DNA from: Mycobacterium sp. Marseille-P9652 | Lineage (GTDB): Bacteria > Actinomycetota > Actinomycetes > Mycobacteriales > Mycobacteriaceae | DNA: 64,000 nucleotides | NCBI RefSeq assembly: GCF_902652685.1 | Contig: NZ_CACRUY010000010.1 | Location: 62,001-126,000 of the forward strand | Direction of reading: 5' to 3' | Made by a program: the position numbers and the translations under genes | Shown: piece by piece, positions 11,731 through 30,772 of the stretch | How the letters are laid out: every line of letters begins with the position of its first letter | Position numbering within the stretch: position 1 is the stretch's first letter | The notes under the pieces: model-generated | What the model saw: only the letters and a program-made list of their open reading frames with translations | What the model was told of the DNA's origin: nothing | Database searches by the model: none

Positions 11731-12876
11731 TCAGTACACCCGGGTCTGGCCCTCGAGGACCGGCACGGTCTCGGGAAGGTGGTAGGTCGCGATCCCGTTC
11801 TTGAACATCACCGCGTCCCGCGCCGCCTTGGGCAGGTGCTTGACCAGCCAGCGCGGGTCGTCGAACGTCCAGTGCGGGTAGTCGGAGGAGAACAGCAGGA
11901 TCTTGTCGCACTCCATCCACTCCAGGGCGCGGGTCAGTTCCGTCTTGTCCTCGGGATAGTCCAGCGGTTGCGTCGTGAACTTGATGTGGTCCTTGACGTA
12001 TTCCGAGGGCTTGCGCTTGATGTCCAGCCACGACTTGCGAGCCTCGTAGATCGCGTCCATGCGCCACATCAGCGGCAGGATCCAGGAGAAGGCGTGCTCG
12101 ACGAACACGATGCGCAGCGTCGGGAACCGGTCGAAGACGCCGTCGAAGATCAGGCTCATCACCTGGTTCGCGGCCAGCAACGAATAGGTCACCATGAAGT
12201 CGTGGTTGTAGCTGGGCAGGCCCACGGGAGGTGTCGGCAACATCTCGTAGTTGCTCCGCGACAGGTGACAGCTCACCGTGATGTCGTGCTTGGTAGCGGC
12301 GGCCCAGATCGGGTCGTACTGCGGGTGTCCCCAGGACGGCCGCGGCTCCGCCTTGATCAGGATCTGCGCCATGTAGGGGTGGCCCGCCCACTTCTCGATC
12401 TGCTCGACGGCCCCCTTAGGGTCCTCGATCGCGGCGCAGATCGAGCCGCGCCAGCGCTGGTGCCAGTTGTTGTGGCTGTCCAGCCAGTGATTGTGCTGCC
12501 AGTCGTTGAGCGCGCTCGAGAAAGCCTGGTGCGCTCCGGCCAGCCGCGGCGTCCGGCCGCCGGGCTCGAGGATCGCGATGTCGGAGCCGGCTTCCATGAT
12601 CAGCTGGCGGAAGGCCATATCCGGGTCGCTGCAGGCGAATTCGCCGTCCGGCGGGAACGTGTCGACGCGCATCGCGAAGGTGTGGGCATAGTCGGGGGCG
12701 TCGTAGTAGATCAGCTCGCCGACCTTGTGGTGCTGGAAGAACTTGCTGCGCCACGGCTCGGGGATGTACTGGACGAGTTCGCCGCGCCGGGGCACGGGGT
12801 GGACGTCGGAGTCGACGCACCGGACGGCTATGCGCTCGGAGGCGGGAACCCGCTCCCGCATATGGGTCAGCGTCAT
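11731..12876 (-). CDS. Amidohydrolase-2 family metal-dependent hydrolase, 381 aa
   Basis: TIM-barrel amidohydrolase (Amidohydro_2, ACMSD-like group). Key sites are VRCVDSDVHPVPRRGELV at the N-terminus (Asp and His metal ligand region), TVSCHLSRSN mid-barrel, and LFSSDYPHWTFDDP near the C-terminus with the metal-binding Asp. The family hydrolyses or decarboxylates cyclic and aromatic-derived acids. The ATG at 12876 is preceded by GAGGAG; an upstream extension in frame would be antisense to the adjacent gene's coding pattern. It is paired with a second family member 26 bases upstream, and the two may form a hetero-complex or act sequentially. Confidence 0.92.
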   Translation of the reverse strand: MTLTHMRERVPASERIAVRCVDSDVHPVPRRGELVQYIPEPWRSKFFQHHKVGELIYYDAPDYAHTFAMRVDTFPPDGEFACSDPDMAFRQLIMEAGSDIAILEPGGRTPRLAGAHQAFSSALNDWQHNHWLDSHNNWHQRWRGSICAAIEDPKGAVEQIEKWAGHPYMAQILIKAEPRPSWGHPQYDPIWAAATKHDITVSCHLSRSNYEMLPTPPVGLPSYNHDFMVTYSLLAANQVMSLIFDGVFDRFPTLRIVFVEHAFSWILPLMWRMDAIYEARKSWLDIKRKPSEYVKDHIKFTTQPLDYPEDKTELTRALEWMECDKILLFSSDYPHWTFDDPRWLVKHLPKAARDAVMFKNGIATYHLPETVPVLEGQTRVY

Positions 12877-12902
12877 CTTTCGAACTCCTCTGCTTCTTTC
12901 CT

Positions 12903-13994
12903 CTACTGTGCGCCCGACCCGACGGCGATGTCTATGCCGTACAGCTCGGCCGCATTGCGCCAGCACAGCTTGTCGCGCTGTTCGGCGGAAAGCGCCGCGG
13001 GCAATTTGCGGACGTCGCCGCACTGCCAGTGCGGGTAGCTGGAACCGAACATCACCATGTTCTCCTTGCCGGTGAAGCCGAACCACTCGCCGGCGAAATC
13101 GACATCCGGGGGACCGTCGAGGCTGCCCTGCACGAAATACACGTGACCGGGCAGGTAGTCGCTGGGGATCCGCGGCGCCCACGGCGTCTGCTCGAGGTGC
13201 GGCCGGCCGAAGGTGTCCATGCGCCAGATGAAGGGCGTGAGAAAGTCGGCTGCGCCGTCGGCCCATACGAACTTCAGGGACGCGAAGCGCTCGAATACGC
13301 CCTCGGCGATCATGTTCATCAGGTGGTACAGGTAGTTGAGCGCCATGAAGCTGACGTACTGCTCGTAGGTGAGCGTGTGCCCGGAGGGCGTGGGGGGAAA
13401 GCCGATGCCCTCACCCGTCTCGATGTGCACCGCGACTGGCAGGTTCGCGTCGGCGGCGGCCTCCCACAGCGGCCAGAACTGCGGTTTGCCGTAGAGCTCG
13501 CGTGACTGCAGCGGGACGCCGATCTGAACCACGCGCGGGTGCCCCCGCCACTTCTCGATCTCGCGGAGCGCCCCGGCGATGTCGTCGGGGTTCACCCGGA
13601 TGGTGCCGCGGAACCGCTCCCCGAATTCCGCGGAGTCCAGCCAGCGCGTCACCATCATCTCGTTGTGGGCGGCGTGCAGCGCACTGCCGAGGTGGCGGTC
13701 GGGCATGATGCCCCGCCCCATCGGATGCAGGACCGCCACGTCGACCCCGCGCTTCGAAAACAGCTCGTGCGCAACGAAGTCCGGATCCGAACCGGGGTAC
13801 TGGCCGTCCAGCCCCTCGGTATTCGGCGCATACTCGCCGCCCGGCGCCCCGTACCAGTCCATCTCGTAATCCGGGAAGCCGCGGCTCTTGAACGGCTCCC
13901 GCAGGACCGAACGCAGGTCTTGGTTGGAGGGAAAGAAGATGTGCACGCTGGCGTCGATCACCGGCGTGCGCGTGCCGTCAGCGTGCTCGATCAC
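12903..13994 (-). CDS. Amidohydrolase-2 family metal-dependent hydrolase, 363 aa
   Basis: First gene of the minus-strand operon 13994-10432. Motifs: VIDASVHIFFPSNQDLR at the N-terminus, AVHIETGEG in the middle and VMFGSSYPHWQCGD near the C-terminus. The metal-binding segment at the start reads D-A-S-V-H where the sister protein has D-S-D-V-H. The predicted start is GTG at 13994 with only a weak purine-rich stretch upstream. The protein differs from its downstream neighbour throughout, so this is an old duplication, not a recent one. Confidence 0.88.
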   Translation of the reverse strand: MIEHADGTRTPVIDASVHIFFPSNQDLRSVLREPFKSRGFPDYEMDWYGAPGGEYAPNTEGLDGQYPGSDPDFVAHELFSKRGVDVAVLHPMGRGIMPDRHLGSALHAAHNEMMVTRWLDSAEFGERFRGTIRVNPDDIAGALREIEKWRGHPRVVQIGVPLQSRELYGKPQFWPLWEAAADANLPVAVHIETGEGIGFPPTPSGHTLTYEQYVSFMALNYLYHLMNMIAEGVFERFASLKFVWADGAADFLTPFIWRMDTFGRPHLEQTPWAPRIPSDYLPGHVYFVQGSLDGPPDVDFAGEWFGFTGKENMVMFGSSYPHWQCGDVRKLPAALSAEQRDKLCWRNAAELYGIDIAVGSGAQ

Positions 13995-14033: not shown

Positions 14034-14167
14034 TAAGCTAACATTCTCGCCCATCGCCTATCAACGGCTTTCCGGTAAGCGTCTCGATTAAACATCGGCC
14101 CTGGTTATCCAGGGTATTACGGCCTGTCAGGTAAGTGTCGTTCTTGAATACGGATAATATCATTCTC
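14034..14167. promoter_or_regulatory. Divergent promoter region with GATAAT-N3-ATTCTC site
   Basis: Bases 14153-14167 read GATAAT-ATC-ATTCTC, 11 of 12 positions of the recurring palindrome. A lone half-site (minus-strand GAGAATGTT) lies at 14040-14048. The 208-base gap separates the amidohydrolase operon from the membrane-protein gene and is conspicuously AT-rich. Confidence 0.45.
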
Positions 14168-16275: not shown

Positions 16276-16311
16276 GAGATTATTACTTCCGCATTGGAGA
16301 ATGTTATTCTC
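16276..16311. promoter_or_regulatory. Perfect GAGAAT-N3-ATTCTC palindrome upstream of acyl-CoA dehydrogenases
   Basis: GAGAATGTTATTCTC at 16297-16311 is a perfect 6-3-6 palindrome ending 31 bases before the start codon. A weaker copy (8 of 12) lies at 16276-16290, two helical turns upstream. A potential -10 hexamer TATTCT overlaps the right arm, which suits a repressor site. Confidence 0.6.
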
Positions 16312-16342: not shown

Positions 16343-17341
16343 ATGCTGTTGGAGTTCGATGCCGATCAGCGGCTGTGGCAGAGCACCGTCCGCGACGTCG
16401 TCACCAAGCAGTGCCCGCCGTCCCTGGTGCGCGGCGTCGCCGAGGACGGCGTGGACGCCAGTCCGCTCTGGAAGTCCTACGTCGACCTCGGCTGGACCGA
16501 ACTGCACGATCCGTCGAGCGCCGTGGAATTGGCCATCGTGCTCGAAGAGCTCGGGCATGCAACGGATCCCACGCCGTTCCTGGCGACGATGAGCCAATTC
16601 GCTCCGCTGGCCGGTGACCGCTTCGACCCGCACGAGTCGGGCACGGCCGTCTACGGCGGCGTGACCGCTTACCGGGACGCTGACGGCTGGGTGCTGGCGG
16701 GGACGGCCCGTCACGTCCTCGACGGCGATCGGGCCGACCGGTTGGCCGTGGTGACCGACGCCGGCGTCTTCCTGGCCCCGGCCAGCCAGGTGTCGGCCCG
16801 GCGGGCCGGGGTGTTCGATCCCGTCCTGCACGTCGCCGACCTGACGTTCGCCGATGTCCACGTGGGCGACGACGCCCGGCTCACGGTCGACCGCGAGCGC
16901 GCCCACCACGTGGCGCTGACGGGCATGGCGATCACGATGGTCGGCGCCTGCCAGCGCATCCTCGACCTGGTGCTCGATCATGCCCGCAGCCGGCACCAGT
17001 TCGGGGTGCCGATCGGCTCCTTCCAGGCGGTTCAGCATAAGGCCGCCGACATGCACGTCGCCATCCAGCGGGCGCGGGCGCTGGCGTACTTCGCCGCGCT
17101 CACCATCGCGGCGGACGACGCCCGTCGCCGCCTGGCGGCCGCGATGGCCAAAGCCTCTGCGGGCGAGTGCCAGTCGCTCGTCTTCCGGCACGGTCTCCAG
17201 CTTTTCGGCGCGATGGGATTCACGTGGGAGAACGACCTGCAGTTCGCGCTCAAGCGGGCCAAGGCGGGTGAGCACCTGCTGGGTGGGGCCGCGGAACACC
17301 GGGCGCGGATCGCCGAGGAGTACCGTGCAGCTGACTTTTGA
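16343..17341 (+). CDS. Acyl-CoA dehydrogenase, short subunit, 332 aa
   Basis: Acyl-CoA dehydrogenase fold with HARSRHQFGVPIGSFQAVQH and FRHGLQLFGAMGFTWENDLQ. At 332 residues it is shorter than a homotetrameric enzyme (about 380) and lacks the C-terminal GGTSEIQRNIIA motif, which its downstream neighbour has. In mycobacteria such adjacent unequal genes form alpha2-beta2 enzymes with half the FAD sites, best known from cholesterol side-chain degradation. The ATG has GGAGG upstream. The stop overlaps the next start by 17 bases. Confidence 0.92.
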   Translation: MLLEFDADQRLWQSTVRDVVTKQCPPSLVRGVAEDGVDASPLWKSYVDLGWTELHDPSSAVELAIVLEELGHATDPTPFLATMSQFAPLAGDRFDPHESGTAVYGGVTAYRDADGWVLAGTARHVLDGDRADRLAVVTDAGVFLAPASQVSARRAGVFDPVLHVADLTFADVHVGDDARLTVDRERAHHVALTGMAITMVGACQRILDLVLDHARSRHQFGVPIGSFQAVQHKAADMHVAIQRARALAYFAALTIAADDARRRLAAAMAKASAGECQSLVFRHGLQLFGAMGFTWENDLQFALKRAKAGEHLLGGAAEHRARIAEEYRAADF

Positions 17342-18497
17342 CGCCGAAGACGAGGCGTTCCGGGCCGAGTTCGCGGCCTTCCTCGACGAGAACCTGCCTG
17401 CCGCAAGCGAAACGCTGGAGCGCCCGCGCTCCGTCTCGCACATGCCGCAGTGGGCGCGCCGCTGGCAGCGGCTCCTGTTCGACAACGGCTGGCTGCTGCC
17501 CGGGCAACCCCCCGAGTTCGGCGGGCGCAACGCCACCGTGGTTCAGCAGTTCGTGCACCTCGAGGAGTTGTGCCGCCGGCGGATCTACCACAGCTTCAAT
17601 CCGCAAGGCGTGAATATCGTTGCCGCCTCGCTGTTGTCGTTCGGCAGCGAGGAGCAGAAGCGGCGGTGGGCGGTGCCCATCCTGCGCGCCGAGATCACCG
17701 CCTCGCTCGGCATGAGCGAACCGAGCGCCGGTTCGGATCTGGCGTCGCTGCGCACCCGCGCGGTCCTCGACGGCCACCACTTCGTGGTGAACGGCCAGAA
17801 GGTCTGGACGTCGGGGGCGCACGATGCCGACGTGCTGCTCGCCTTCGTGCGGACCGACCCGGACGCGCCGAAACACAAGGGCATCAGCGCGTTGGTGATC
17901 CCCACCGACACCCCCGGCGTCGTGCGCCGGCCGTTCGCGTCCATCTGCGCCGCCGACGACCTGGACTTCAACGAGGTCTTCTTCACCGACGCGCGGGTGC
18001 CGGCCGAGAACCTGGTCGGTGCGCTCAACGAGGGCTGGCGGGTGGCCAACGGGTCGCTCGGGCATGAGCGCACGATGATGTGGCTCGGGTTCGCCGATCG
18101 CATGGACAACGTGATCGCCGATTGGCGTCCGACAACGGATCTCGAGCGCGACCAGTACGCCAGCCTGGTCATGGACAAACAGGCCCTGCGCCTGCTGGGT
18201 TCGGTGGCGCTGGCCCGCGCCGCCCGGGGCGAGGACGACGTCGCCGCGATCTCCGTGCTCAAGCTCCTGGGTTCGGAGGCGGAGCTGCGGGGAACCGAAT
18301 ACGCGTTGACGGCGGCCGGGGCGGACGGGCTGACCCAGCCCGGCCAGTCCGGCCCGTACGCACCGATGAATCTCGACCACTACTTCGGGAGCTGGTTCGA
18401 CCGCTACGCCCGCAGCTTCTCCGGGACGATCGCCGGCGGCACCTCGGAGATCCAGCGCAACATCATCGCCCAGCGGGTGCTGGGCCTGCCGCGCTGA
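17325..18497 (+). CDS. Acyl-CoA dehydrogenase, long subunit, 390 aa
   Basis: Full-length acyl-CoA dehydrogenase: ASLGMSEPSAGSDLASLRTR (FAD/substrate motif), VNGQKVWTSGAHDADV, and C-terminal SGTIAGGTSEIQRNIIAQRV. The GTG start at 17325 (protein VQLTFDAEDEAFRAEF) is chosen because the family pattern begins there; the open frame runs further upstream inside the preceding gene. It probably pairs with the 332-residue subunit to oxidise an acyl-CoA to the enoyl-CoA. Confidence 0.93.
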   Translation: MQLTFDAEDEAFRAEFAAFLDENLPAASETLERPRSVSHMPQWARRWQRLLFDNGWLLPGQPPEFGGRNATVVQQFVHLEELCRRRIYHSFNPQGVNIVAASLLSFGSEEQKRRWAVPILRAEITASLGMSEPSAGSDLASLRTRAVLDGHHFVVNGQKVWTSGAHDADVLLAFVRTDPDAPKHKGISALVIPTDTPGVVRRPFASICAADDLDFNEVFFTDARVPAENLVGALNEGWRVANGSLGHERTMMWLGFADRMDNVIADWRPTTDLERDQYASLVMDKQALRLLGSVALARAARGEDDVAAISVLKLLGSEAELRGTEYALTAAGADGLTQPGQSGPYAPMNLDHYFGSWFDRYARSFSGTIAGGTSEIQRNIIAQRVLGLPR

Positions 18498-18572: not shown

Positions 18573-19937
18573 CTAGTCGATGACGGCGGATTCCTTGCGC
18601 TCGGTGATGGGCCTGGCGAGTTCCTGTTCGTCGCAGATGCGTTGCAGCTTGTCGAGCGTCTCGTCGAGGCCGGCTCCGACCCGGGGGCGGGGGGTGAACG
18701 TGGCGGGGAGGTTGCGCATGCCCTGGATCACGCCGATGGTCTCGTAGTGCACCGTGCCCTCGGGATCGCAGCGGTAGTCCGGCATCCGGTCGAGCACCGC
18801 GGTCAGCATCGACTTGAACACCGTGCGTGCCACGTTGGAGCCGATGCAGCGGTGCACCCCGAGCCCGAAGCTGAAGTGGCGGTTCCCTTTTCGGTCCAGC
18901 ACGACCGTGTCGGGGTCGTGGAACACCGACGGGTCGCGGTTGGCCATGGCCCACGAGATCCACAGCCGCTCGCCCTCTCTGAAGCGGATGCCGTCGAGCT
19001 CCACGTCGTCGGAGAATGTCCTGCCGTCGCCGGGCGCCGGCGTGAAGTACCGCAGGAATTCCTCGGTCGCGGGATCGAGCAGGGTGTCGCGTTGGGTGCT
19101 GAGCACCTGGCGCTGGTCGGGGTGCTGTGAAAGCCATTCCAGCGCATGGGCGGTCAGCGCCGTCGTGGTGTCGAAGCCGCCGCCGATCACCAGGCCGAGA
19201 TTGCCGAGGATCTCCAGATCCGGCGCCGGCTGCCCGTCGATGCGCAGCTGAAGCAGGGCATTAACGATCCCCGGTCGCGGGTTCTCGCGGATCTCGATCA
19301 TGTTGTTGACGAGGTCGAGCCCCATCTGCCGGTGCATCTCGGTGACCCGCTGGATATCGGGGGAGTGTTCCGGTGTGTAGATCGCGGCGTGGGTGGGCTC
19401 GCTGTACATCTTCCAGTTCTTCAGCGGAATCCCCATGAGCGCCAGCGTCAGAACCGCGGGCACCACGTTGGCGAGGTCGTCGACGAAGTCGATGCGGCCC
19501 TGCTCGATCCTCTCGTCGAGGCAGGCCCGCGTCACGTCGTCGATGAACGGCTCCCAGCGCTTCACGGCCGCCGGGGACAGGTACGGGTTGAGCACATTGC
19601 GGTAGATGCGGTGCTCGGGGTCGTCCATCTCGAGGATGCCGCCCCGCACGCCGTTGATGCGGCTCGCCGTCGGGATCGAGATGCCCTTGTACCCGCGGCG
19701 TTCATTGTTGACGTCGTGATCGTTGGAAACCGCGGGGCAGCGCGCCAGTTCGAACACCTCGTGGCTGCCCGCGGCCACCCAATGGCCGCCGTAGGTGTCG
19801 CTCCACGCCATCGGGCACTTGGCGTGCATCTCCTGGGTGACGGCGCTGAACTGCGCACGGTACTCCGCGCTGTGCCGGTCGAAGTGGTACAGGTACCTCG
19901 TGCGGTCGCTGTCATCGATGACGTCGTCGACGCTCAC
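18573..19937 (-). CDS. Cytochrome P450, 454 aa
   Basis: P450 with I-helix IGGGFDTTTAL (Asp-Thr acid-alcohol pair), K-helix E-F-L-R and heme loop FGLGVHRCIG (Cys364). At 454 residues it is longer than the other P450s of the window. About 45 residues follow the usual C-terminus (LDETLDKLQRICDEQELARPI), possibly a helical extension. GTG start with AGGGAG upstream. It follows its ferredoxin by 13 bases and an SDR, so the operon could oxidise a hydroxylated product in sequence. It is only distantly related to the P450 at 1148. Confidence 0.94.
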   Translation of the reverse strand: MSVDDVIDDSDRTRYLYHFDRHSAEYRAQFSAVTQEMHAKCPMAWSDTYGGHWVAAGSHEVFELARCPAVSNDHDVNNERRGYKGISIPTASRINGVRGGILEMDDPEHRIYRNVLNPYLSPAAVKRWEPFIDDVTRACLDERIEQGRIDFVDDLANVVPAVLTLALMGIPLKNWKMYSEPTHAAIYTPEHSPDIQRVTEMHRQMGLDLVNNMIEIRENPRPGIVNALLQLRIDGQPAPDLEILGNLGLVIGGGFDTTTALTAHALEWLSQHPDQRQVLSTQRDTLLDPATEEFLRYFTPAPGDGRTFSDDVELDGIRFREGERLWISWAMANRDPSVFHDPDTVVLDRKGNRHFSFGLGVHRCIGSNVARTVFKSMLTAVLDRMPDYRCDPEGTVHYETIGVIQGMRNLPATFTPRPRVGAGLDETLDKLQRICDEQELARPITERKESAVID

Positions 19938-19950
19938 CAGCCGGCTCCCT

Positions 19951-20151
19951 TCACGCGTCGTCCGTGAGGACGATGGCCTGCTCGGGGCAGGACTGCGCGG
20001 CTTCGCGGACCTGTTCCTCGCGATCGGCGGGCACCACCTCGTCGACGGCCGACGAACTGCCGTCGATGTCGCTGAGCCGGAAGGAATCCGGGGCGATCAT
20101 CGAACACAGGGTGTGTCCCTGGCAGCGTTCCGGGTCAACCCAGACCTTCAC
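19951..20151 (-). CDS. Ferredoxin, atypical, 66 aa
   Basis: Single-cluster ferredoxin with CQGHTLC (His at the variable position) and distal CPEQAI. The GTG at 20151 with GGAGACACC upstream starts the protein VKVWVDPERC; an in-frame upstream extension to 20265 is arginine/histidine-rich and not ferredoxin-like. It sits between an SDR and a P450 on the same strand and is the likely electron donor to that P450. Confidence 0.92.
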   Translation of the reverse strand: MKVWVDPERCQGHTLCSMIAPDSFRLSDIDGSSSAVDEVVPADREEQVREAAQSCPEQAIVLTDDA

Positions 20152-20186
20152 GGTGTCTCCTTGCCGAGTGTGTTGCCGGTGCGACT

Positions 20187-20888
20187 TCAGGTGTTGCGCC
20201 CGCCGTTGACGCCGAGGATCTGGCCGGTGATGTAGCCGGCCTCCTCCGACACCAGGAAGGCGCACGCCGCCGCGATGTCTTCGGGCCGCCCCATCCTGCG
20301 CACCGGCGTGCGCGCGATGGTTTCGTCGATGTCACCGAGGAACCCCTTCTCGGCGGCGGCGCGCAGCATCGGCGTGTCGATGAAGCCGGGGGGCACGGCG
20401 TTCACCGTGATTCCGCTCGGGCCGTATTCGAGCGCCAACGACTTGGTGAGCCCGTTGACCGCCGACTTGGCCGCCACGTAGTGACTCATATACGGCGCGC
20501 CGGAATGGGTGCTGGACGACGAGATGTTGACGATCCGCCCCCACCCCGCCTCGACCATGTCGGGCAGCACCGCCTGGGTGACGTGGAAGACGCCGTGCAG
20601 GTTGACGTCGATCACCCGCCGCCAGTCCTCGAACGTGATGTTGGCGAACCGCTTGAACCCGTCCAGCCCCGCCGCGTTCACCAGCACGGTAACCGGACCC
20701 AGCTGGGCGCGGACCGCGGCGAGGGCGGCGTCCACCTGCGCGCGGTCGGTGACGTCGGCGGTGAAGGCGAGCTCGACGTCGGAGGGTTTGAGGTCGAGTG
20801 TGGCGACGTCGAGACCGTCAGCGCGGAGTCGCTGCGCTACGGCGAGGCCGATGCCCGAGCCGCCACCGGTGACCAGTGCTGTCTTCAC
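20187..20888 (-). CDS. Short-chain dehydrogenase/reductase, 233 aa
   Basis: Classical SDR: NAD(P)-binding T-G-G-G-S-G-I-G at residues 7-14, catalytic Ser in VNISSSSTHSG and Tyr137-x3-Lys141 (YVAAK), then the C-terminal signature GYITGQILGVNGGRNT. Asp at the end of the second strand (DVATLDLKPSD) suggests NAD preference. GTG start. It is first in the SDR-ferredoxin-P450 operon and most likely oxidises an alcohol, or reduces a ketone, of the P450 or beta-oxidation pathway. Confidence 0.92.
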   Translation of the reverse strand: MKTALVTGGGSGIGLAVAQRLRADGLDVATLDLKPSDVELAFTADVTDRAQVDAALAAVRAQLGPVTVLVNAAGLDGFKRFANITFEDWRRVIDVNLHGVFHVTQAVLPDMVEAGWGRIVNISSSSTHSGAPYMSHYVAAKSAVNGLTKSLALEYGPSGITVNAVPPGFIDTPMLRAAAEKGFLGDIDETIARTPVRRMGRPEDIAAACAFLVSEEAGYITGQILGVNGGRNT

Positions 20889-20960: not shown

Positions 20961-20975
20961 GAGAACCTTACTCTC
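20961..20975. promoter_or_regulatory. GAGAAC-N3-ACTCTC operator-like site
   Basis: GAGAAC-CTT-ACTCTC matches 10 of 12 positions of the recurring palindrome. It is 73 bases upstream of the SDR start on the minus strand, in the divergent region shared with the CoA-transferase unit. Confidence 0.4.
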
Positions 20976-21127: not shown

Positions 21128-21142
21128 GAGAATGAAGTTTTC
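21128..21142. promoter_or_regulatory. GAGAAT-N3-GTTTTC operator-like site
   Basis: GAGAAT-GAA-GTTTTC has a perfect left arm and four of six right-arm positions. It ends 29 bases before the small coding sequence at 21172. A separate short dyad, CGAAT-N5-ATTCG, precedes it at 21104-21118. Confidence 0.35.
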
Positions 21143-21171: not shown

Positions 21172-21318
21172 ATGCCAGCTCAGGACACCGCGGACACCAT
21201 CACGGATGCCGCGCCTGAGCCGTCGGTCGACCGTCGACTGCTCGTCGGCTGCCGCCTCGTCGGCGTGACCTTCGCCGTTACCTCCCCTGTTCCAATGGCC
21301 GCCGGGGCGACGGCATGA
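21172..21318 (+). CDS. Putative small protein or leader peptide, 48 aa, upstream of a CoA-transferase
   Basis: An open frame of 48 codons with ATG at 21172 is preceded by AGGGGACGAG. It ends in TGA that overlaps the ATG of the CoA-transferase (ATGA at 21315-21318), the same coupling used by true operon genes here. The product begins MPAQDTADTITDAAPEPSVD and ends in a mildly hydrophobic stretch; no family is recognised. It may be a real small protein, a coupling leader or the remnant of a larger gene. Confidence 0.4.
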   Translation: MPAQDTADTITDAAPEPSVDRRLLVGCRLVGVTFAVTSPVPMAAGATA

Positions 21319-22520
21319 GGCCGCTGGACGGCATCCGCGTCCTCGAGGTGGCGATGTACGGGTTCGTCCCGTCGGCCGGGGCGGTGCTGCGCGAATGGGG
21401 CGCCGACGTGGTGAAGGTCGAGCACGCCGTGACGGGGGACCCGCAGCGCGGGCTGCGGCAGACCGGCATGCTTCGCGTCGACGGCGACCCGAACCCCAAC
21501 ATCGAGCACGCCAACCGCGGCAAGCGCAGCATCGGGCTCGACATGTCCGTGCCCGAAGGCAAAGAGGTGCTCTACGAGCTGGCCCGCCGGGCCGACGTCT
21601 TCCTCACCAGCTTCCTTCCCGCTCACCGCACGAAGTTCGGCATCGACGTCGACGACATCCGTGCGGTCAATCCGAACATCGTCTACGCCCGCGGCAGCGC
21701 ACTCGGCCCGCGCGGCGCCGAGTCGGAGAAGGGCGGCTACGACATGACCGCCTTCTGGTGCCGCGCCGGCACCGCGGCGACCATCACCCCCGCGGGCATG
21801 CCCGGCATGATCGCCCCGCCCGGACCCGCCTACGGCGACACCATCTCCGGCACCAATCTCGCCGGGGGCATCGCGGCCGCTCTGCTCAAGCGTGAGCGCA
21901 CCGGTGAACCTTCGGTGGTCGACGTCTCGCTGCTGGGGAGCGGCCTGTGGTCGATGGGTCACACCGTGGCGTTGACCAACCACCTGCACCAGCGCATGGA
22001 GGCCCCCCCGCCGGGTGTGCACGGCGCGCCGAACAACCCCCTGGTGGGGCTCTACACCACCTCCGACGGCCGCTACATCTCGTTCGTGATGATGCAGCCC
22101 ACCAAGTTCTGGGCCGACGTGTGCCGGCACGTCGACCTCCCGGAGCTGGCCGACGACCCACGGTTCGCCACGGTGGAGAGCATCGCGGCCAACACCGCCG
22201 ACGCGGTGGAGATGTTGACCAAGGTGATCGCGACCCGCACTCTTGCCGAGTGGAGCGAACGCTTTGCCACGCTCGCCGGGCCGTGGGCGCCCGTGCAAGA
22301 CACCTTGCAGGCGGCCGAGGACGCGCAGATCCGCGCCAACGAGTACATGATTCGCGCGGGCGAACTCGAGCTCGTTGCCAATCCGGTCCAATTCGACGTC
22401 ACCGCACCGCAGACCGGGCCGGCGCCCGGATTCGCCGAGCAGACCGACGAGATCCTGCTCGAGATCGGGCTCGACTGGGACCGCATCATCGAACTCAAGA
22501 CGGCCGGCGCCGTCACCTGA
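21315..22520 (+). CDS. CaiB/BaiF (class III) CoA-transferase, 401 aa
   Basis: Family III CoA-transferase/racemase: N-terminal PLDGIRVLEVAMYGFVPSAG, GADVVKVEHAVTGDPQRG, NRGKRSIGLDMSVPEGKEVL and the glycine-rich loop near residue 130. Members move CoA between carboxylic acids through an aspartyl thioester, or racemise alpha-methyl acyl-CoAs. Length is typical. It is transcribed away from the SDR-ferredoxin-P450 operon and may activate the acid that those enzymes process. A second, distant member is far at 50865. Confidence 0.9.
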   Translation: MRPLDGIRVLEVAMYGFVPSAGAVLREWGADVVKVEHAVTGDPQRGLRQTGMLRVDGDPNPNIEHANRGKRSIGLDMSVPEGKEVLYELARRADVFLTSFLPAHRTKFGIDVDDIRAVNPNIVYARGSALGPRGAESEKGGYDMTAFWCRAGTAATITPAGMPGMIAPPGPAYGDTISGTNLAGGIAAALLKRERTGEPSVVDVSLLGSGLWSMGHTVALTNHLHQRMEAPPPGVHGAPNNPLVGLYTTSDGRYISFVMMQPTKFWADVCRHVDLPELADDPRFATVESIAANTADAVEMLTKVIATRTLAEWSERFATLAGPWAPVQDTLQAAEDAQIRANEYMIRAGELELVANPVQFDVTAPQTGPAPGFAEQTDEILLEIGLDWDRIIELKTAGAVT

Positions 22521-22808: not shown

Positions 22809-23627
22809 ATGGCGGCTAAGAGCGCGGGGCCCGAGCGGTGGACCGGGGGCATCTCGTTGGGCCGGGGCTCCAAGCCCATGGAGGCCGTCGGGGGCTTGTT
22901 CGCGATGTCTTTCGACGCCATCAAGTTCGTGTTCCGCCGGCCCTTCCAGTGGCGGGAGTTCCTCGAGCAGTCCTGGTTCGTGGCGCGGGTGGCGCTGGCG
23001 CCCACCCTGATGGTCGCGATCCCCTTCACCGTTCTGGTCAGCTTCACGCTCAACATCCTGCTGCGGGAACTTGGTGCCGCCGACCTGTCCGGCGCCGGCG
23101 CGGCGTTTGGCGCCGTGACCCAGGTCGGGCCTTTGGTGACCGTGCTGATCGTGGCCGGCGCCGGTTCCACGGCCATGTGCGCGGACCTCGGTTCGCGCAC
23201 GATCCGCGAAGAGATCGATGCGATGGAGGTGCTGGGCATCAACCCGGTGCAGCGCCTGGTGACACCGCGCATGTTAGCCGCCGGTCTGGTGGCACTGCTG
23301 CTGAACAGCCTGGTCGTCATCATCGGCATCGTGGGCGGCTATGTGTTCTCGGTGTTCGTCCAGGATGTCAACCCGGGGGCGTTCGCCGCGGGGATAACGC
23401 TGCTGACCGGGGTGCCCGAGGTGATCATCTCCTGCGTCAAGGCAGCCCTTTTCGGCTTGATCGCGGGGCTGGTCGCCTGCTATCGCGGGCTGACGGTATC
23501 GGGCGGTGGCGCGAAAGCCGTGGGCAACGCCGTCAACGAAACGGTCGTGTACGCCTTCATGTCGTTGTTCGTCGTGAATGTCGTTGTCACGGCGATCGGT
23601 ATCCGCATGTCCACCAAAGGCCACTGA
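22809..23627 (+). CDS. yrbEA: YrbE-family Mce permease subunit A, 272 aa
   Basis: MlaE/YrbE-type inner-membrane permease of a mycobacterial Mce lipid importer. Several hydrophobic helices follow an amphipathic N-terminus (FKF/FVFRRPFQWREFLEQSW). The cytoplasmic coupling loop TIREEIDAMEVLGINPVQRL is the site expected to contact the MceG ATPase, which is encoded elsewhere. The ATG at 22809 is preferred over an in-frame upstream start because the protein then aligns with family length. First gene of a complete eight-gene cassette. Confidence 0.95.
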   Translation: MAAKSAGPERWTGGISLGRGSKPMEAVGGLFAMSFDAIKFVFRRPFQWREFLEQSWFVARVALAPTLMVAIPFTVLVSFTLNILLRELGAADLSGAGAAFGAVTQVGPLVTVLIVAGAGSTAMCADLGSRTIREEIDAMEVLGINPVQRLVTPRMLAAGLVALLLNSLVVIIGIVGGYVFSVFVQDVNPGAFAAGITLLTGVPEVIISCVKAALFGLIAGLVACYRGLTVSGGGAKAVGNAVNETVVYAFMSLFVVNVVVTAIGIRMSTKGH

Positions 23628-23646
23628 GGAGGTATAGGGACACGCC

Positions 23647-24492
23647 GTGACACTGCGCGCCGTCTATCCGCGACTATCGCGGCAGATCGACAAGCCGATC
23701 GCCACCCTGGGGCGGATCGGCGATCACACGCTGTTCTACGGCAAGGCGCTGGCCGGCGTGCCGTACGCGGTGCGCCACTACCGGCGGGAAGTCATCCGTC
23801 TGGTTGCCGAGATCAGCATGGGCGCGGGAACTCTCGCGATGATCGGCGGCACGCTCGTGATCGTCGGATTCCTGACGCTGGCCGCCGGCGGCACGCTGGC
23901 CGTGCAGGGGTACAGCTCGCTGGGCAACATCGGCATCGAGGCGCTGACCGGGTTCCTCGCGGCGTTCATCAACGTGCGCATCGCGGCGCCGATCGTCGCG
24001 GGGATCGGCCTTGCCGCCACCTTCGGAGCGGGGGTGACCGCGCAGCTCGGCGCGATGCGGATCAACGAGGAGATCGACGCGCTGGAATCCATGGCGATCC
24101 GGCCGGTTTCGTATCTGGTCAGCACCCGGATCGCGGCCGGCATGATGGCGATCACGCCGTTGTATTCGATCGCCGTCATCCTGTCCTTCCTGGCGAGCCA
24201 GTTCACCACCGTGGTCCTGTTCGGCCAGTCGGGCGGGTTGTATCAGCATTACTTCTCGACGTTCCTGAACCCGATCGACCTGCTGTGGTCGTTCCTGCAG
24301 GCCGTGCTGATGGCCATCACGATCTTGTTGATACACACCTATTTCGGTTACTTCGCGTCGGGCGGGCCGGCCGGCGTCGGCGTCGCGACGGGCAACGCCG
24401 TGCGGACCTCGCTGATCGTGGTGGTGTCGGTGACGCTGCTCGTCTCCCTGTCCATCTACGGCACCAACGGCAACTTCAACCTGTCGGGCTAG
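23647..24492 (+). CDS. yrbEB: YrbE-family Mce permease subunit B, 281 aa
   Basis: Second permease subunit, homologous to YrbEA, with the loop RINEEIDALESMAIRPVSYL and about five or six membrane helices. GTG start at 23647 follows the ribosome site GGAGG 19 bases after yrbEA. The two permeases form the membrane channel through which substrate delivered by the MceA-F assembly enters the cell. Confidence 0.95.
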   Translation: MTLRAVYPRLSRQIDKPIATLGRIGDHTLFYGKALAGVPYAVRHYRREVIRLVAEISMGAGTLAMIGGTLVIVGFLTLAAGGTLAVQGYSSLGNIGIEALTGFLAAFINVRIAAPIVAGIGLAATFGAGVTAQLGAMRINEEIDALESMAIRPVSYLVSTRIAAGMMAITPLYSIAVILSFLASQFTTVVLFGQSGGLYQHYFSTFLNPIDLLWSFLQAVLMAITILLIHTYFGYFASGGPAGVGVATGNAVRTSLIVVVSVTLLVSLSIYGTNGNFNLSG

Positions 24493-24510
24493 GAAGGCGG
24501 TGAAAGGACG

Positions 24511-25788
24511 ATGACGCGCAACCTCGGGCCCGGGCCCATCCACCGGTCGGAGACAACCAGCTCCGCTCGACCCGTCGCCGCGTCACCCGGCCGCCACTTC
24601 GGCGCCCAGTCCTACGCCCGGCCCCTTGCCGGGTTGGCCACCATCGTCCTGATCGCCGTCATCTTCGCGATCTCGATCGGTCTCTTCCAGGGAGACTTCA
24701 CCGAAAGCGTGCCCGTGACGGTCGTTTCGCCGCGCGCGGGCCTGGTGATGAACCCCGACGCCAAGGTCAAGATGCGCGGCGTCGAGGTCGGCCGGGTGGA
24801 ATCGATCGATGTCCGGCCCAACGGTCAAGCCGTCCTGAAGCTGGCGATGCAGCCGTCGCAGATGCACCTCATTCCCGCGAACGTCCTCGTCGACATCGCT
24901 TCCACGACGGTGTTCGGCGCCAAGTTCGTCGAGCTGGTCCCGCCCGCGGATCCGTCGGCGCAGCCGCTGCGTGCGGGACAGGTGCTCGAGGGCAAGCACG
25001 TCACCGTCGAAATCAACACCGTGTTCCAGCAATTGACCTCGCTGCTGTCGACGATCGATCCCGCCAAGCTGAACGAAACCCTGGGCGCGTTGGCGTCGGC
25101 GGTCAACGGCCGCGGCCACAAGATCGGCCAGATGCTCAAGGACCTGGATTCCTTCCTGGCCACCCAGGAGCCGAGCCTTCCGGCGCTGAGCCACGACCTC
25201 GAGGCCTTGCCGGTGGTGAGTAACGCCTATGCCGACGCAGCGCCGAATCTGCTCGCGACCGCCGACAACGCGGTCCGTATCAGCAAAACGATCGTCGACG
25301 AGCAGCAGAACCTGGACGCCTTCCTCATCAGTTCAATTGGCCTGGCGGACATGGGCAATGACGTGATCGGCGGCAACAGGGAGGCGTTGACCGATGCGCT
25401 TCATCTTCTGGTGCCCACCTCGGACCTGCTCAACGAGTACCACGAAGCGCTGTGGTGCGGCCTCTCCGGATCACTGGTCAACCTGCACGCGCCGAACCTC
25501 CCGGAGCCGATGATCAAGGTGTTGGTCGAGATCGGCTTCGGCGCCGAGCGTTACCGGTACCCATCCAACCTGCCCAAGGTCGCCGCGACGGGCGGCCCGC
25601 AGTGCCAGGACCTTCCGGTCGTGCCGTTCGACAAGTCCCCGCCGTTCGTCATCACCGACGTGGGCGCCAACCCGATGGAGTACGGGAACCCGCAGTTGAT
25701 GTGGAACTCCGACGCCCTCAAGCAACTCCTGTACGGGCCGATCGACGGGCCGCCGCGCAACACCATGCAGATCGGGCAACCCGGATGA
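24511..25788 (+). CDS. mceA: MceA-type substrate-binding protein, 425 aa
   Basis: One N-terminal membrane segment (LAGLATIVLIAVIFAISIGL, about residues 40-60). An MCE domain follows (GLVMNPDAKVKMRGVEVGRV through FGAKFVELVPP), then a long helical domain and a C-terminal tail. Cell-envelope component of the lipid importer. The cassette class (mce1-8) cannot be settled by eye; it does not closely resemble mce3A as I recall it. The stop overlaps the next start by four bases. Confidence 0.95.
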   Translation: MTRNLGPGPIHRSETTSSARPVAASPGRHFGAQSYARPLAGLATIVLIAVIFAISIGLFQGDFTESVPVTVVSPRAGLVMNPDAKVKMRGVEVGRVESIDVRPNGQAVLKLAMQPSQMHLIPANVLVDIASTTVFGAKFVELVPPADPSAQPLRAGQVLEGKHVTVEINTVFQQLTSLLSTIDPAKLNETLGALASAVNGRGHKIGQMLKDLDSFLATQEPSLPALSHDLEALPVVSNAYADAAPNLLATADNAVRISKTIVDEQQNLDAFLISSIGLADMGNDVIGGNREALTDALHLLVPTSDLLNEYHEALWCGLSGSLVNLHAPNLPEPMIKVLVEIGFGAERYRYPSNLPKVAATGGPQCQDLPVVPFDKSPPFVITDVGANPMEYGNPQLMWNSDALKQLLYGPIDGPPRNTMQIGQPG

Positions 25789-26828
25789 CCGGCTCCCGCA
25801 ACATGATCATCAAGTTCGGTGTCTTCGCCACCGTGATGATTGTGCTCACCGTGTTCCTGTTCTTCATCTTCGGGCAATACACGACCGGTTCGACCAACGG
25901 GTATTCGGCGGTGTTCACGGACGTGTCCCGGCTGAAGCCCGGAGAAACGGTGCGGGTGGCCGGCATTCGGGTGGGCACCGTCAACAGCGTCAGCCTGCGT
26001 CCCGACAAGAAGGTCGTCGTCAAGTTCGACGCCGATCGCAACAGCGTCGTGCTCACCAACGGAACCCGTGCCGTCGTCCGCTACCTGAACCTGGTCGGCG
26101 ACCGGTACCTCGAACTCGTCGAGGGTCCGGGATCGACGAAGACGTTGCCGCCCGGCTCGGAGATACCGCTCGACCGCACGGCGCCGGCCCTCGACCTCGA
26201 CCTGCTGCTCGGCGGATTGAAGCCGGTTACCCAGGGGTTGAATCCGCGCGACGTGAACGAGTTGAGCGCCGCGCTGATCCAGGTGTTCCAGGGCGAGGGC
26301 GGGACGCTGCAGTCGCTGCTGTCGAAGACGTCGTCGTTCTCGAATGCGTTGGCCGACAACAGCCAGACCGTCCAGGAGCTGATCGACAACCTCAACACCG
26401 TGGTGGGCACGGTGGACAAGGACAACGCCAAATTCTCCGGCACCATCGACCGACTCGAGAAGCTCATCAGCGGGTTGGACCAGGACCGCGACACCATCGG
26501 CACCGCAATCACCGCCCTGGACAACGGAACCGCCTCGATTGCGGATCTGCTGACCCGGGCGCGCCCGCCGCTGGCGAGCACCGTTGACCAACTCAGTCGA
26601 CTGGCTCCCTTGCTCGACAAAGACAAGGACGTCATCGACATCTCACTGAAGAAGTTGCCGAACAACTACCGCAAGCTGACGCGGCTCGGCGCCTACGGCG
26701 CCTGGTTCCCGTACTACCTATGCGGGCTGGCACTGCGGGTTTCCGATCTGCAGTACCGGACGGTGGAAGTCGGAATCAACCACGAGGTCACCGGGCGTTG
26801 CGCGGAGCCGAAGGATCCCGATGAATAA
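25785..26828 (+). CDS. mceB: MceB-type protein, 347 aa
   Basis: The ATG at 25785 overlaps the mceA stop (ATGA). A signal-anchor helix (FATVMIVLTVFLFFIFGQY) is followed by the MCE domain (YSAVFTDVSRLKPGETVRVA to VGDRYLELVEGP), and a helical region with periodic leucines forms the predicted tunnel. The C-terminus carries two cysteines (YLCGLALR and GRCAEP). It overlaps mceC by eight bases. Confidence 0.94.
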   Translation: MTGSRNMIIKFGVFATVMIVLTVFLFFIFGQYTTGSTNGYSAVFTDVSRLKPGETVRVAGIRVGTVNSVSLRPDKKVVVKFDADRNSVVLTNGTRAVVRYLNLVGDRYLELVEGPGSTKTLPPGSEIPLDRTAPALDLDLLLGGLKPVTQGLNPRDVNELSAALIQVFQGEGGTLQSLLSKTSSFSNALADNSQTVQELIDNLNTVVGTVDKDNAKFSGTIDRLEKLISGLDQDRDTIGTAITALDNGTASIADLLTRARPPLASTVDQLSRLAPLLDKDKDVIDISLKKLPNNYRKLTRLGAYGAWFPYYLCGLALRVSDLQYRTVEVGINHEVTGRCAEPKDPDE

Positions 26829-27903
26829 GTACCGCGGGGCAGGGCTCATCAAGGCCGGATTCATCGGCGCCGTGTTGATCGCGCTGGTGATCGCCGTCGG
26901 ACTGAATCCCGACCAACTGCTACAGCGGGCGACCACGGTCCGCTACCAGGCGCTGTTCTCGGACGCGGGCGGCCTCGCCACCGGCAACGACGTGTTGGTG
27001 TCCGGAATAAAGGTCGGCAGCGTGTCGAACATGTCGCTGGACCATGGCGACGTGCTGGTGACGTTCACCGTGAAGGGCAACGTCTTGCTGGGGTCGGCGA
27101 GCACCGCCCACATCAAGACCGGTTCGCTGTTGGGGCAGCGGGTGCTCACGCTCGACTCCGCTGGCAGCGGCACGATGCGTCCGCTGGCCGTCATCCCCGC
27201 GTCCCGCACGTCGTCGCCGTATTCGCTGTCCGAGGCGGTGAGCGACCTGACCACCGACATCGGCGGGACCAACACCGACGCGCTCAACCAGTCGCTGGAC
27301 ACGCTGTCGTCGACGCTGAATCAGATTGCGCCCGAACTGGGCCCGGCGTTCGACGGGGTCACCCGGCTGTCTGCGACCCTCAACGCGCGCAATCAGACGC
27401 TCGGGCAGTTGCTCAAGGGTGCCGCCGACGTCACCGGCATCCTGGGGCAGCGCAGCCAGCAACTCAACACGCTGATCCTCAACGCCAACGACCTGGTGTC
27501 GATGCTGGTGTCGCGGCGGCAGGCGATCGTGCGACTGCTATCCAGCACGTCCGCTGTGGCCAGACAGCTCTCCGGCATCGTGCATGACAACGAGGCGAAG
27601 CTGGCGCCGGCGCTGGAGAAGCTGAACTCCGTGACCGACATGCTGGAGAAGAACCGCGACAACCTGTCCAAGGCCCTGCCGGGCCTGGCGAAATACGAGC
27701 TCACACAGGGCGAAACGGTGTCGAGCGGGTTCTACTACAACCCGTTCATCCCGAACGTGTTCACGCTGCAGTTCTTCCAGTGGTTGTTCGACTACACCTG
27801 GGGATTCCGGGCCTATGGCGCTCCCGGTCAGCCGCCGGACACCGCCGGACCGCGGGCGCTGTTCCCGTTCCCGTTCAACCAGAACCCCGGGGGGTCGCGA
27901 TGA
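26821..27903 (+). CDS. mceC: MceC-type protein, 360 aa
   Basis: N-terminal hydrophobic anchor (AGFIGAVLIALVIAVGL), MCE domain (ALFSDAGGLATGNDVLVSG to LLGQRVLTLDSA), and an extended coiled helical domain (NQSLDTLSSTLNQIAPEL onward). The end has the aromatic stretch FTLQFFQWLFDYTWGFR and a proline-rich tail. The start overlaps mceB by eight bases and the stop overlaps mceD by four, so the six mce genes are translationally linked. Confidence 0.94.
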   Translation: MNKYRGAGLIKAGFIGAVLIALVIAVGLNPDQLLQRATTVRYQALFSDAGGLATGNDVLVSGIKVGSVSNMSLDHGDVLVTFTVKGNVLLGSASTAHIKTGSLLGQRVLTLDSAGSGTMRPLAVIPASRTSSPYSLSEAVSDLTTDIGGTNTDALNQSLDTLSSTLNQIAPELGPAFDGVTRLSATLNARNQTLGQLLKGAADVTGILGQRSQQLNTLILNANDLVSMLVSRRQAIVRLLSSTSAVARQLSGIVHDNEAKLAPALEKLNSVTDMLEKNRDNLSKALPGLAKYELTQGETVSSGFYYNPFIPNVFTLQFFQWLFDYTWGFRAYGAPGQPPDTAGPRALFPFPFNQNPGGSR

Positions 27904-29336
27904 CGCGACTCGAGGCGATCGTGCGCCACCGGAGGTTCAAGGTCGGACTGGCGGTCCTGTTGGTCGTACTGGTCGTTGTGGGCGCCGGAATCGCCGTCCG
28001 CAACACCTTCTTCCGTCCCACCACGATCACGGCCTACTTCCCCACCGCGACCGCGATCTACCCGGGTGACGACGTGCGGGTGTCCGGCATGAAGGTCGGC
28101 ACGATTGCGTCGATCCAGCCGGTCGGCACACAGGCGAAGCTCGTGATGCACGTCGACCGCGGCGTGCCCATCCCGGCCGACGCGAAGGCGGTGATCGTCG
28201 CCCAGAACCTGGTGGCGGCACGCTACGTCCAACTCACCCCGGCCTACCGGACGAGCGGCCCGACCATGCACGACGGTGCGGTGATACCGGTCGAGCGGAC
28301 CGCGGTGCCCGTCGAATGGGACGAGGTCAAGGACCAGTTGATGCGCCTGGCAACGGAGTTGGGCCCCAACAGCAAGGTCTCGACCCCGTCGGTCGCGCGG
28401 TTCATCGACAGCGCGGCCGACGCGCTGGGTGGCGGCAACGGTGAGAAGCTGCGGCAGACGCTGGCGCAACTGTCCGGGGTGGGCCGCGTCCTGGCAAGCG
28501 GGAGCGGCAATCTCGTCGACATCATCAAGAACTTGCAGGCCTTCGTCGGGGCGTTGCGGGACAGCAACGTTCAGATCGTGCAGTTCGACAACCGGCTGGC
28601 CACGCTCACCAGCGTGCTGGACGACAACAAGTCGGAATTGAACGCGGCCCTGACCGACCTGTCGAGTGCGGTCGGGGAGGTGCAACGCTTCATCGCGGGC
28701 AGCCGGGACGCGACCTCCGAGCAGATCGCGCGGCTGGCCGACCTCACCCAGATCCTGGTGGACAACAAGATGGCGCTGAAAAACGTTCTGCACGTTGCGC
28801 CCAACGCGTTGGCCAACGGCTACGCCGACTACGACCCCGATGTCGGGAATGTCCGTGGGGGGGTCGGCTTCCCGAACCTCGCCAACCCGGTGTTCGCCCT
28901 GTGCTCGCAGATCGGGGCGCTGGAGAACGCCACGGCCAACGAGTCGGGAAAGCTGTGTGGGCTGTACCTGAGCCCGGCGCTGCGGGTGTTCAACCCATTG
29001 CTGTACTTCAACTTCAACTACCTTCCGATCCCCATCAACCCGTTCCTGTCGCCGGCGTTCGACCCGAAGAACGTCGTGTACACCGAGCAGCGGCTCGCCC
29101 CCGGTGGCGAGGGACCCAAGCCGTCGGCGCCGGACTTGCCTCCCGCCGTGTCCGCCTACACCGGGTTGCCGGGTGACACTCCTCCGGCGGCGCCACCGCC
29201 ACCGCCGCCCGGGCGTATCCCCGGAGCGGCGATGCCGGAGCCGCCCCCGCCGAGCACACCGGTCCAACCGCCGCCAGCGGGTGCCCCGGCCAACGTGCAG
29301 GACATGTTGCTCCCGAACGAAGGGCCGCAACCATGA
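27900..29336 (+). CDS. mceD: MceD-type protein with proline-rich tail, 478 aa
   Basis: Membrane anchor (VGLAVLLVVLVVVGAGIAV), MCE domain (AYFPTATAIYPGDDVRVSG to LVAARYVQLTPAY), helical domain to about residue 330, two cysteines (ALCSQIG, GKLCGLYL) and a low-complexity proline/alanine tail from about 400 to the end. The tail may span peptidoglycan. ATG at 27900 overlaps the mceC stop. Confidence 0.94.
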   Translation: MTRLEAIVRHRRFKVGLAVLLVVLVVVGAGIAVRNTFFRPTTITAYFPTATAIYPGDDVRVSGMKVGTIASIQPVGTQAKLVMHVDRGVPIPADAKAVIVAQNLVAARYVQLTPAYRTSGPTMHDGAVIPVERTAVPVEWDEVKDQLMRLATELGPNSKVSTPSVARFIDSAADALGGGNGEKLRQTLAQLSGVGRVLASGSGNLVDIIKNLQAFVGALRDSNVQIVQFDNRLATLTSVLDDNKSELNAALTDLSSAVGEVQRFIAGSRDATSEQIARLADLTQILVDNKMALKNVLHVAPNALANGYADYDPDVGNVRGGVGFPNLANPVFALCSQIGALENATANESGKLCGLYLSPALRVFNPLLYFNFNYLPIPINPFLSPAFDPKNVVYTEQRLAPGGEGPKPSAPDLPPAVSAYTGLPGDTPPAAPPPPPPGRIPGAAMPEPPPPSTPVQPPPAGAPANVQDMLLPNEGPQP

Positions 29337-30772
29337 CCGCCTGGAGGGCCGCGCGGCGGCGCGTGCTTGGCGTCGCCTGCGCCGTGATGCTCGCGACGAG
29401 CGGGTGCGCGTTCAACGGCCTGAATTCGCTGCCGCTGCCGGGCGCGGTCGGACGCGGCCCGGGCGCCGCCACCTATCACGTCGAGATCGCCAATGTCGGC
29501 ACCCTCGAGGCGAATTCGCCCGTCATGGTCGACGATGTCATCGTCGGCAGCATCAGCAAGATGAGGGTGCGCGGCTGGCATGCCGACGTCGACATCTCGG
29601 TGCGGCCGGGCGTGACCATCCCGGCGAACGTGGAGGCCAGCGTCGGCCAGACCAGCCTGCTGGGCTCCATGCACCTGGCACTGAATCCGCCGCTCGGCCA
29701 GGAGGGCACCGGAAAATTGAAGCCCGGTGACACGATCCCGATGAACAGATCGAAGACGTACCCGTCGACCGAGCAGACCCTGTCGTCGCTCTCGGTGGTC
29801 CTCAACGCGGGTGGGCTGGGCCAGATCGGGGACATCATCCACAACTTCAACGCATCCGTGTCCGGTAACGAAGGCGCCCTGCGCGATCTGATCAATCGCC
29901 TCGACAGGTTCGTCGGCACATTCGACCAGCAGCGCGACAACCTGGTGGAGTCGATCAAGGCGCTGAACCGGCTGTCCGGCACGTTCGCCGCGCAGCGCGA
30001 CGTGATCACGCAGGCGCTCAACAAGATTCCGCCGGCCCTGGATGTCCTGATCAAGGAGCGACCCCGGTTGGTGACGGCGCTGGACAAGCTCGGGACGTTC
30101 AGCAACACGGCCACCAGGCTCGTCAACGACGCGGGCGACGACCTGGTCAAGAACCTGCAAAACCTTGCGCCGACCATCAAGGCGCTCGCCGACGTAGGGC
30201 CGGACCTCGACGCCGCGATCGCCTACGCGCCGACGTTCCCGTTCACCCAGGGCTTCATCGACCGCTACGTCCGGGGCGACTACGTCAACGGGTACTTCAT
30301 CATCGACCTCACCAACGCCGGACTGCGTAAGAGCATCCTGTTGGGCACGCACTGGGGACGGCTGGGCGCCGAGGCCGTGCCGACGGTCGGCGACCCGGAG
30401 TACCTGCAATTCAAGTACGGTGCACCACCGGGAGCGCCCGGGGCCGTGCCGGCGCCCGGGCCGGTGGGCGAGCCGCTGCGACTGGGCTTCTGGCCCCCGC
30501 CGTGGCAGCCCGGCGTGCCGCCGCCCGACGCGCCCCCGGTCAACGCGCCCCCGGCATCGGTCAACCCGCAGTCGGGCGACGCCCCGTCGCCGCAGCCGCC
30601 GGTCTCGCCGCTCATCGCGGGACTGACCATGCTCGGGCCCAAAGCGCAGAACGATCCATCGTCCATACCCGCACTGCCTGCCCCCCCGCCGGGCCCGTCG
30701 GCCGGTGATGCGTCGTCACCGGCGAATCCGCCCGTCCCGGGTGCGACACCGACTTCGGGCGGGGGGCAGTAG
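29333..30772 (+). CDS. mceE: MceE-type lipoprotein, 479 aa
   Basis: The signal peptide ends in the lipobox L-A-T-S-G-C with Cys25 as the lipidated residue, the hallmark of MceE proteins. The MCE domain (YHVEIANVGTLEANSPVMV to LGSMHLALNPP) and a helical region follow. The C-terminus is a long proline-rich tail from about residue 370. Its lipid anchor is expected to fix the assembly in the membrane. ATG overlaps the mceD stop by four bases; the mceF start follows immediately. Confidence 0.95.
   Translation: MTAWRAARRRVLGVACAVMLATSGCAFNGLNSLPLPGAVGRGPGAATYHVEIANVGTLEANSPVMVDDVIVGSISKMRVRGWHADVDISVRPGVTIPANVEASVGQTSLLGSMHLALNPPLGQEGTGKLKPGDTIPMNRSKTYPSTEQTLSSLSVVLNAGGLGQIGDIIHNFNASVSGNEGALRDLINRLDRFVGTFDQQRDNLVESIKALNRLSGTFAAQRDVITQALNKIPPALDVLIKERPRLVTALDKLGTFSNTATRLVNDAGDDLVKNLQNLAPTIKALADVGPDLDAAIAYAPTFPFTQGFIDRYVRGDYVNGYFIIDLTNAGLRKSILLGTHWGRLGAEAVPTVGDPEYLQFKYGAPPGAPGAVPAPGPVGEPLRLGFWPPPWQPGVPPPDAPPVNAPPASVNPQSGDAPSPQPPVSPLIAGLTMLGPKAQNDPSSIPALPAPPPGPSAGDASSPANPPVPGATPTSGGGQ

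Follow-up and report, generated by a model that had tools for sequence, protein, structure and literature searches.

The palindrome GAGAAT-N3-ATTCTC is very probably the operator of a TetR-family dimer, g48, which would repress its own promoter, a supercluster of catabolic genes and at least one unlinked operon. The window analysed comprises 64,000 nucleotides (positions 62001-126000 of contig C10, which has 131,372 bp) of a 5.70 Mb genome. The initial annotation had proposed one repressor controlling a dispersed catabolic regulon. A single regulator was supported, both by co-occurrence and by the site in the promoter of g48, but the regulon is mostly one supercluster of approximately 90-110 kb plus at least one unlinked operon. 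Judging from sequence comparison, the likely regulator is encoded outside the window and the probable operator is often a tandem pair. Enrichment, intergenic placement, conservation, co-occurrence with g48, the own-promoter site and the tandem spacing all emerged from such comparisons; physical binding, repression, cooperativity, the inducer and the substrate are what we infer.

All ten previously reported sites were found again in the window: two perfect (16297 and 43223), one with one mismatch (14153) and seven with two mismatches. Dinucleotide shuffling gave a mean of 0.79 sites (maximum 3), which bears out the claim that the sites are not due to chance. Genome-wide (5.70 Mb) there were six perfect copies, five on C10 (C10:15724, 50364, 57715, 78297 and 105223, the last two being 16297 and 43223 in the window) and one at C104:4226, together with two one-mismatch copies, compared to none for the motif read backwards. 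One-mismatch site C63:12785 lies within open frames (the longest of 256 and 180 residues). At up to three mismatches the genome had 626 matches vs. 111 for the backward-read control, so that weak matches are common, mostly off C10. On C10, 16 sites were present at up to two mismatches, and 15 of them lay outside called genes, although the non-genic share is 8.2% of the contig (genes were called with a simple codon-usage script, and starts are approximate). The motif is thus not as frequent inside genes as upstream of them, the pattern that the initial annotation had named as evidence against a regulon. The remaining site, C10:8637, lies inside a gene and was rejected as an operator and taken as chance. 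Palindromes with permuted arms (n = 59) had a mean of 1.0 site on C10 (maximum 6), compared to 16 for the motif, and a mean of 0.41 upstream sites (maximum 3), compared to 14.

The perfect predicted operator at 16297..16311 precedes an acyl-CoA dehydrogenase pair, g78/g79 (16343..18497, plus strand), its likely target, and recurs before the g78 ortholog in 3/3 relatives; a weaker partner copy with four mismatches (16276..16290) lies 21 bp from it. The other perfect predicted operator of the window (43223..43237) is centred 30 bp before the start of amidohydrolase g107 and recurs in 2/2 scorable relatives; g107 and the FadD3-family ligase g108 (43260..45895, plus strand) are the likely targets. 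The predicted operator with one mismatch (14153..14167) is located between amidohydrolase g74 (minus strand) and the YrhK-like g75 (plus strand), and was found before g74 in 3/3 relatives. Amidohydrolases g74 and g73 (11731..13994, minus strand) are its likely targets. Predicted operators with two mismatches were found before P450 g63 (1105..1119, with a three-mismatch partner 21 bp away), before the SDR-ferredoxin-P450 genes g82-g80 (20961..20975) and between g82 (minus strand) and CoA-transferase g83 (plus strand) (21128..21142, with a four-mismatch partner 22 bp away), each recurring in 3/3 relatives. The likely targets here are g63 (1148..2428, plus strand; best solved relative CYP150A6, 532 bits), the SDR g82, the ferredoxin g81 (CxxHxxC) and the P450 g80 (18573..20888, minus strand), and the family III CoA-transferase g83 (21315..22520, plus strand). 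Behind g83 there is a complete mce operon (22809..32452, plus strand) with two YrbE-type permeases and six Mce proteins. At up to two mismatches, the window scan revealed no site belonging to this operon, which is a possible read-through target from g83, whose upstream gap has two operators.

Two predicted operators with two mismatches, 22 bp apart, form a tandem (41716..41752) between enoyl-CoA hydratase g104 (minus strand) and the 19 kDa-lipoprotein-like g105 (plus strand); the tandem recurs as a pair in G235 and not in G034 (1/2 relatives). A two-mismatch candidate follows g108 (45928..45942), and in G034 the g108 ortholog is directly followed by a one-mismatch site; the window candidate (C10:107928) was left out of the conservation scoring, as the next called start is 357 bp away. 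By contrast, the two-mismatch candidate before the ChsH2-like g124 (61654..61668), also proposed to belong to the regulon, recurred in 0/2 relatives, and conservation gave it no support.

The suggestion that the search for the binding protein should start with TetR proteins led to a specific gene, g48, singled out by its own-promoter site and by co-occurrence. It encodes a TetR-family regulator of 216 amino acids (C10:49591-50241, minus strand, approximately 12 kb before the window), with a TetR_N domain (PF00440, residues 34-79, 31.4 bits vs. a cut-off of 24). A perfect site was present approximately 137 bp before the g48 start in 79/80 named relatives, and 71/80 had another site (up to one mismatch) no more than 200 bp away on the 3' side. 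The exception of the 80 is M. tilburgii (L106), which has a three-mismatch remnant approximately 136 bp before a g48 frame that is still open, possibly regulon decay. Identity was 0.997 in the operator arm columns before g48 and 0.815 in the whole upstream stretch. The stretch 40-55 bp before g48, perhaps a promoter or an earlier start, was conserved as strongly as the operator (L042-L121), so conservation alone does not single out the operator. The site remains beside g48 in G034, although this genome lacks the divergent gene g49. Residues 46-80 of the helix-turn-helix region are identical in 142/151 sequences, and conservation is lowest in the block of the C-terminal 56 residues. Plasmid records contained no g48 relative at E ≤ 1e-20.

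Next to this, g48 and the motif co-occurred in the genus. Both were present in 241 of 297 genomes (g48 at E ≤ 1e-80) and neither in 47, while five had the motif only and four had g48 only (Fisher's test, 4e-44, with phylogeny ignored; as g48 sits inside the cluster, cluster loss removes both). Two of the five motif-only genomes (G070 and G275) contain pieces of g48 at contig level, two others (G044 and G279) have just one perfect motif each, which is near chance, and in G148, with its eight perfect sites, no g48 ortholog was found (the genome is 93% complete and 7% contaminated). Of the four genomes with g48 only, two (G056 and G178) show a one-mismatch site in front of the gene, one (G089) a decayed site and one (G206) none. 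An R59G change was rejected as the cause of the site loss in G206, since a paralog with G at this position has an adjoining perfect site. In G026, G063 and G287, g48 is kept, there is one perfect motif elsewhere in the genome, and no site is near g48. G148, G206, G026, G063 and G287 are real exceptions to the pairing. Species poor in perfect sites keep a site with zero or one mismatch before g48 (G056, G291, G184, G004, G093, G162 and G178).

A perfect copy was present in 246/297 genomes of the genus, 216 of which had 5-8 copies (counted by eye); the backward-read control had seven matches in all 297 (also by eye). A lack of conservation between related species had been named as another argument against the regulon, and the palindrome proved to be conserved both in the genus and at orthologous promoters. 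Compared with the relatives G235, G034 and G290, sites recurred at the promoters of g16/g17 (ferredoxin/CoA ligase), g47 (SDR), g48 (TetR), g57/g58 (CMD protein/amidohydrolase), g63, g74, g78, g82/g83 (two sites) and g107. C10:49532, which has two mismatches here, is perfect in G034 and G290 and has one mismatch in G235. Scoring took 14 of the 16 C10 sites (8637, coding, and 107928, more than 350 bp from a start, were left out) and gave conservation in 31/38 gene-relative pairs vs. 26/65 for the pooled permuted-arm controls, a high background that makes the excess in site number the better evidence. The perfect copy at C104:4226, unlinked to C10, stands in front of an operon (C104:1-6457) encoding a phosphotransferase, an SDR, an acyl-CoA dehydrogenase, the regulator TetR104 and a quinone oxidoreductase, divergent from a histidine phosphatase gene. 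It lies within an open frame extending upstream of the likely phosphotransferase start. Counterparts were found before the same phosphotransferase-SDR-acyl-CoA dehydrogenase operon in 5/7 stretches, the context being different in G020 and G291; the seven were chosen for a site with a GCT/AGC spacer, which partly accounts for the spacer they share.

In an order-wide sample, g48 was detected in 39/298 genomes (E ≤ 1e-40), five of them from two other genera. These five had 5-19 sites at up to one mismatch, compared to 0-9 in 15 genomes without g48. G442, which has no g48 at this threshold, was considered as a counter-example and discarded: its nine one-mismatch sites, none of them perfect, are spread over seven contigs and look like chance. 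At the loci of G503, G316 and G555, g48 and g78 have a site between them, and a second site directly follows g48. Outside the genus, G316 and G555 also share a site before g57, and in G316 one recurs between g16 and g17. The sites around g48/g78, g57 and g16/g17 look like an old core of the regulon. In another genus, a perfect copy was observed approximately 190 bp upstream of g61, also a TetR gene (G316:C21:18272, G522:C12:533542 and G559:C24:362799); g61 may be a downstream regulator there, forming a cascade.

Operator architecture was analysed in 368 site contexts thinned to 134 at less than 62% identity, with orthologous promoters still among them. The flanks of the arms carried at most 0.30 bits at any of 28 printed positions, with a mild AT preference beside the arms. 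A second copy (up to five mismatches) was present 20-22 bp away in 70/134 contexts, compared to a mean of 8.7 (maximum 22) for other offset triplets. The same spacing was observed at 10/14 sites of C10 (8637 left out, 103716/103738 counted once), where the mean over 66 triplets was 0.85 (maximum 3). Second copies were also mildly in excess at 28 and 37 bp, below the 20-22 bp peak. As 20-22 bp is two helical turns, this spacing suggests two dimers side by side, which would presumably bind tandem copies cooperatively. At most conserved promoters, site centres lie 30-180 bp before the called starts, which fits repression.

In the mechanism we propose, the g48 dimer would occupy its own promoter and those of the supercluster and block transcription. 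At many promoters, a second dimer could bind next to it on the weaker copy 20-22 bp away, and g48 would be released by an intermediate of the pathway, perhaps an acyl-CoA thioester. It is improbable that a different regulator (TetR g61, TetR104, IclR g27 or one not found) binds the palindrome, with g48 being only a member of the regulon. The region holds several regulators, and more may exist, since the Pfam scan covered 80/131 called genes of C10; moreover, g61 has the perfect upstream site in three genomes of another genus and g27 a weak variant site in its own promoter. However, of seven C10 regulators checked, g48 alone has a strong promoter site. Among 34 genomes, hand-picked from those carrying both g48 and the motif (up to one mismatch), g61 was missing from five and TetR104 from 18, on which ground TetR104 was rejected as the binder; the profiling covered these two candidates.

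Repression by g48 is also preferred over a g48 that binds and activates, or acts differently by promoter, which we consider very unlikely. Some sites are far from called starts (222 bp for g58, 180 and 347 bp for g83, the starts being approximate), but many others are 30-80 bp before starts, where a bound dimer would block the polymerase, and the TetR relatives with the same layout, KstR, KstR2 and BkaR, repress according to the passages considered (PMC1995591, PMC3068626, PMC3920632). Least plausible of all is a dispersed repeat or an RNA hairpin in place of a protein site. In its favour, the palindrome is a perfect inverted repeat between genes; nevertheless, orthologous promoters have retained their copies, in many cases between divergent genes, the spacing of second copies is phased, and the low information outside the arms in the 134 contexts argues against a mobile repeat.

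The genes around the sites encode P450s with unusual ferredoxins, a Rieske oxygenase, acyl-CoA dehydrogenase pairs, amidohydrolases, CoA ligases, ChsH2-like/thiolase genes, a CoA-transferase and the complete mce operon. The P450 at 38407-39681 of the window matches the solved M. marinum CYP150A6 very closely (813 bits over 423 residues). Two window ferredoxins (CxxHxxC, 66 aa; CxxFxxC, 102 aa) resemble Fdx5 and Fdx6 of the M. marinum cluster Mmar_4716-4736, in the portions of PMC6237146 considered. That cluster shares the ferredoxin types and CYP150-type P450s of the window, sequence comparison having been made with CYP150A6 only (PMC6237146). The same portions describe the oxidation of beta-ionone by M. 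marinum CYP150A5 in vitro, list the Mmar_4716-4736 genes without an M. tuberculosis counterpart, and deal with enzymes and electron transfer, with no regulator and without the word TetR (PMC6237146). On the same contig before the window (C10:26676-36630), an IclR gene is divergent from alpha/beta-hydrolase, FAD monooxygenase, LigB dioxygenase, FAD oxidoreductase and luciferase-like genes, a group resembling an mhp-type aromatic ring-cleavage operon; the IclR gap has a variant site ending in ATTTCC, also present in G034 and at window 61654.

Our guess is that the substrate of the regulon is a hydrophobic cyclic lipid or a terpenoid. More broadly, and with somewhat less than even confidence, we suggest that a degradation programme for such a compound, not described so far, might have g48 as its master repressor and an mce importer of its own, in parallel to KstR and Mce4. 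It would use cooperative two-dimer tandem operators, occur in at least two sister genera as well, and have disappeared along with its sites from a minority of the genus. To our knowledge, few mycobacterial TetR proteins have a known operator, and here a candidate regulator, an operator and a target list are named together. If true, this would open up a large conserved mycobacterial catabolic programme (P450s, a Rieske oxygenase, acyl-CoA dehydrogenases and perhaps an mce importer), and the identity of the inducer would point to its substrate. The palindrome, in several spellings, had no match in the literature text searched, and no description of a g48-type regulator was found in the titles, abstracts and passages searched, most subscription papers being outside the coverage of both searches. 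PMC8228715 was discarded as a prior report of the six-letter arm, since in the passage considered the arm lies in primer tails.

Among known systems, KstR (Rv3574/MSMEG_6042), which controls cholesterol catabolism, is an autoregulated TetR repressor whose own promoter, next to an acyl-CoA dehydrogenase gene, carries a site and which has many lipid-degradation targets with short palindromic operators, as described in parts of PMC1995591. The motif had been described as unlike KstR and KstR2 sites, and this agrees with the operators given in the passages considered, TAGAAC-N2-GTTCTA for KstR (PMC1995591) and AnCAAGnnCTTGnT for KstR2 (PMC3068626), the latter compared by eye. The KstR operator TnnAACnnGTTnnA is not matched, as the GAGAAT palindrome has a three-base spacer and its arm ends in T, not C. 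KstR-type matches form a separate set of 16 in the genome (control 3), with one on C10, and g48 reached 21 bits against the NCBIfam KstR equivalog, the cut-off of which is 280. KstR2 is likewise a TetR repressor, and its few palindromic sites lie between divergent catabolic genes; its operator differs and, as far as the same parts of PMC3068626 go, it controls about 15 genes. The similarity of g48 to PDB KstR2 chains is weak (E 0.014) and limited to the helix-turn-helix end. BkaR (Rv2506/MSMEG_4718), also an autoregulated mycobacterial TetR protein, has two palindromes in its own promoter, but its operator core is GTTA(N)T(N4)A(N)TAAC and its target a small operon of keto-acid metabolism, according to sections of PMC3920632. 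The g48 regulon thus appears to be a new TetR regulon that would work like that of KstR, with a separate regulator and motif, and not a new kind of system.
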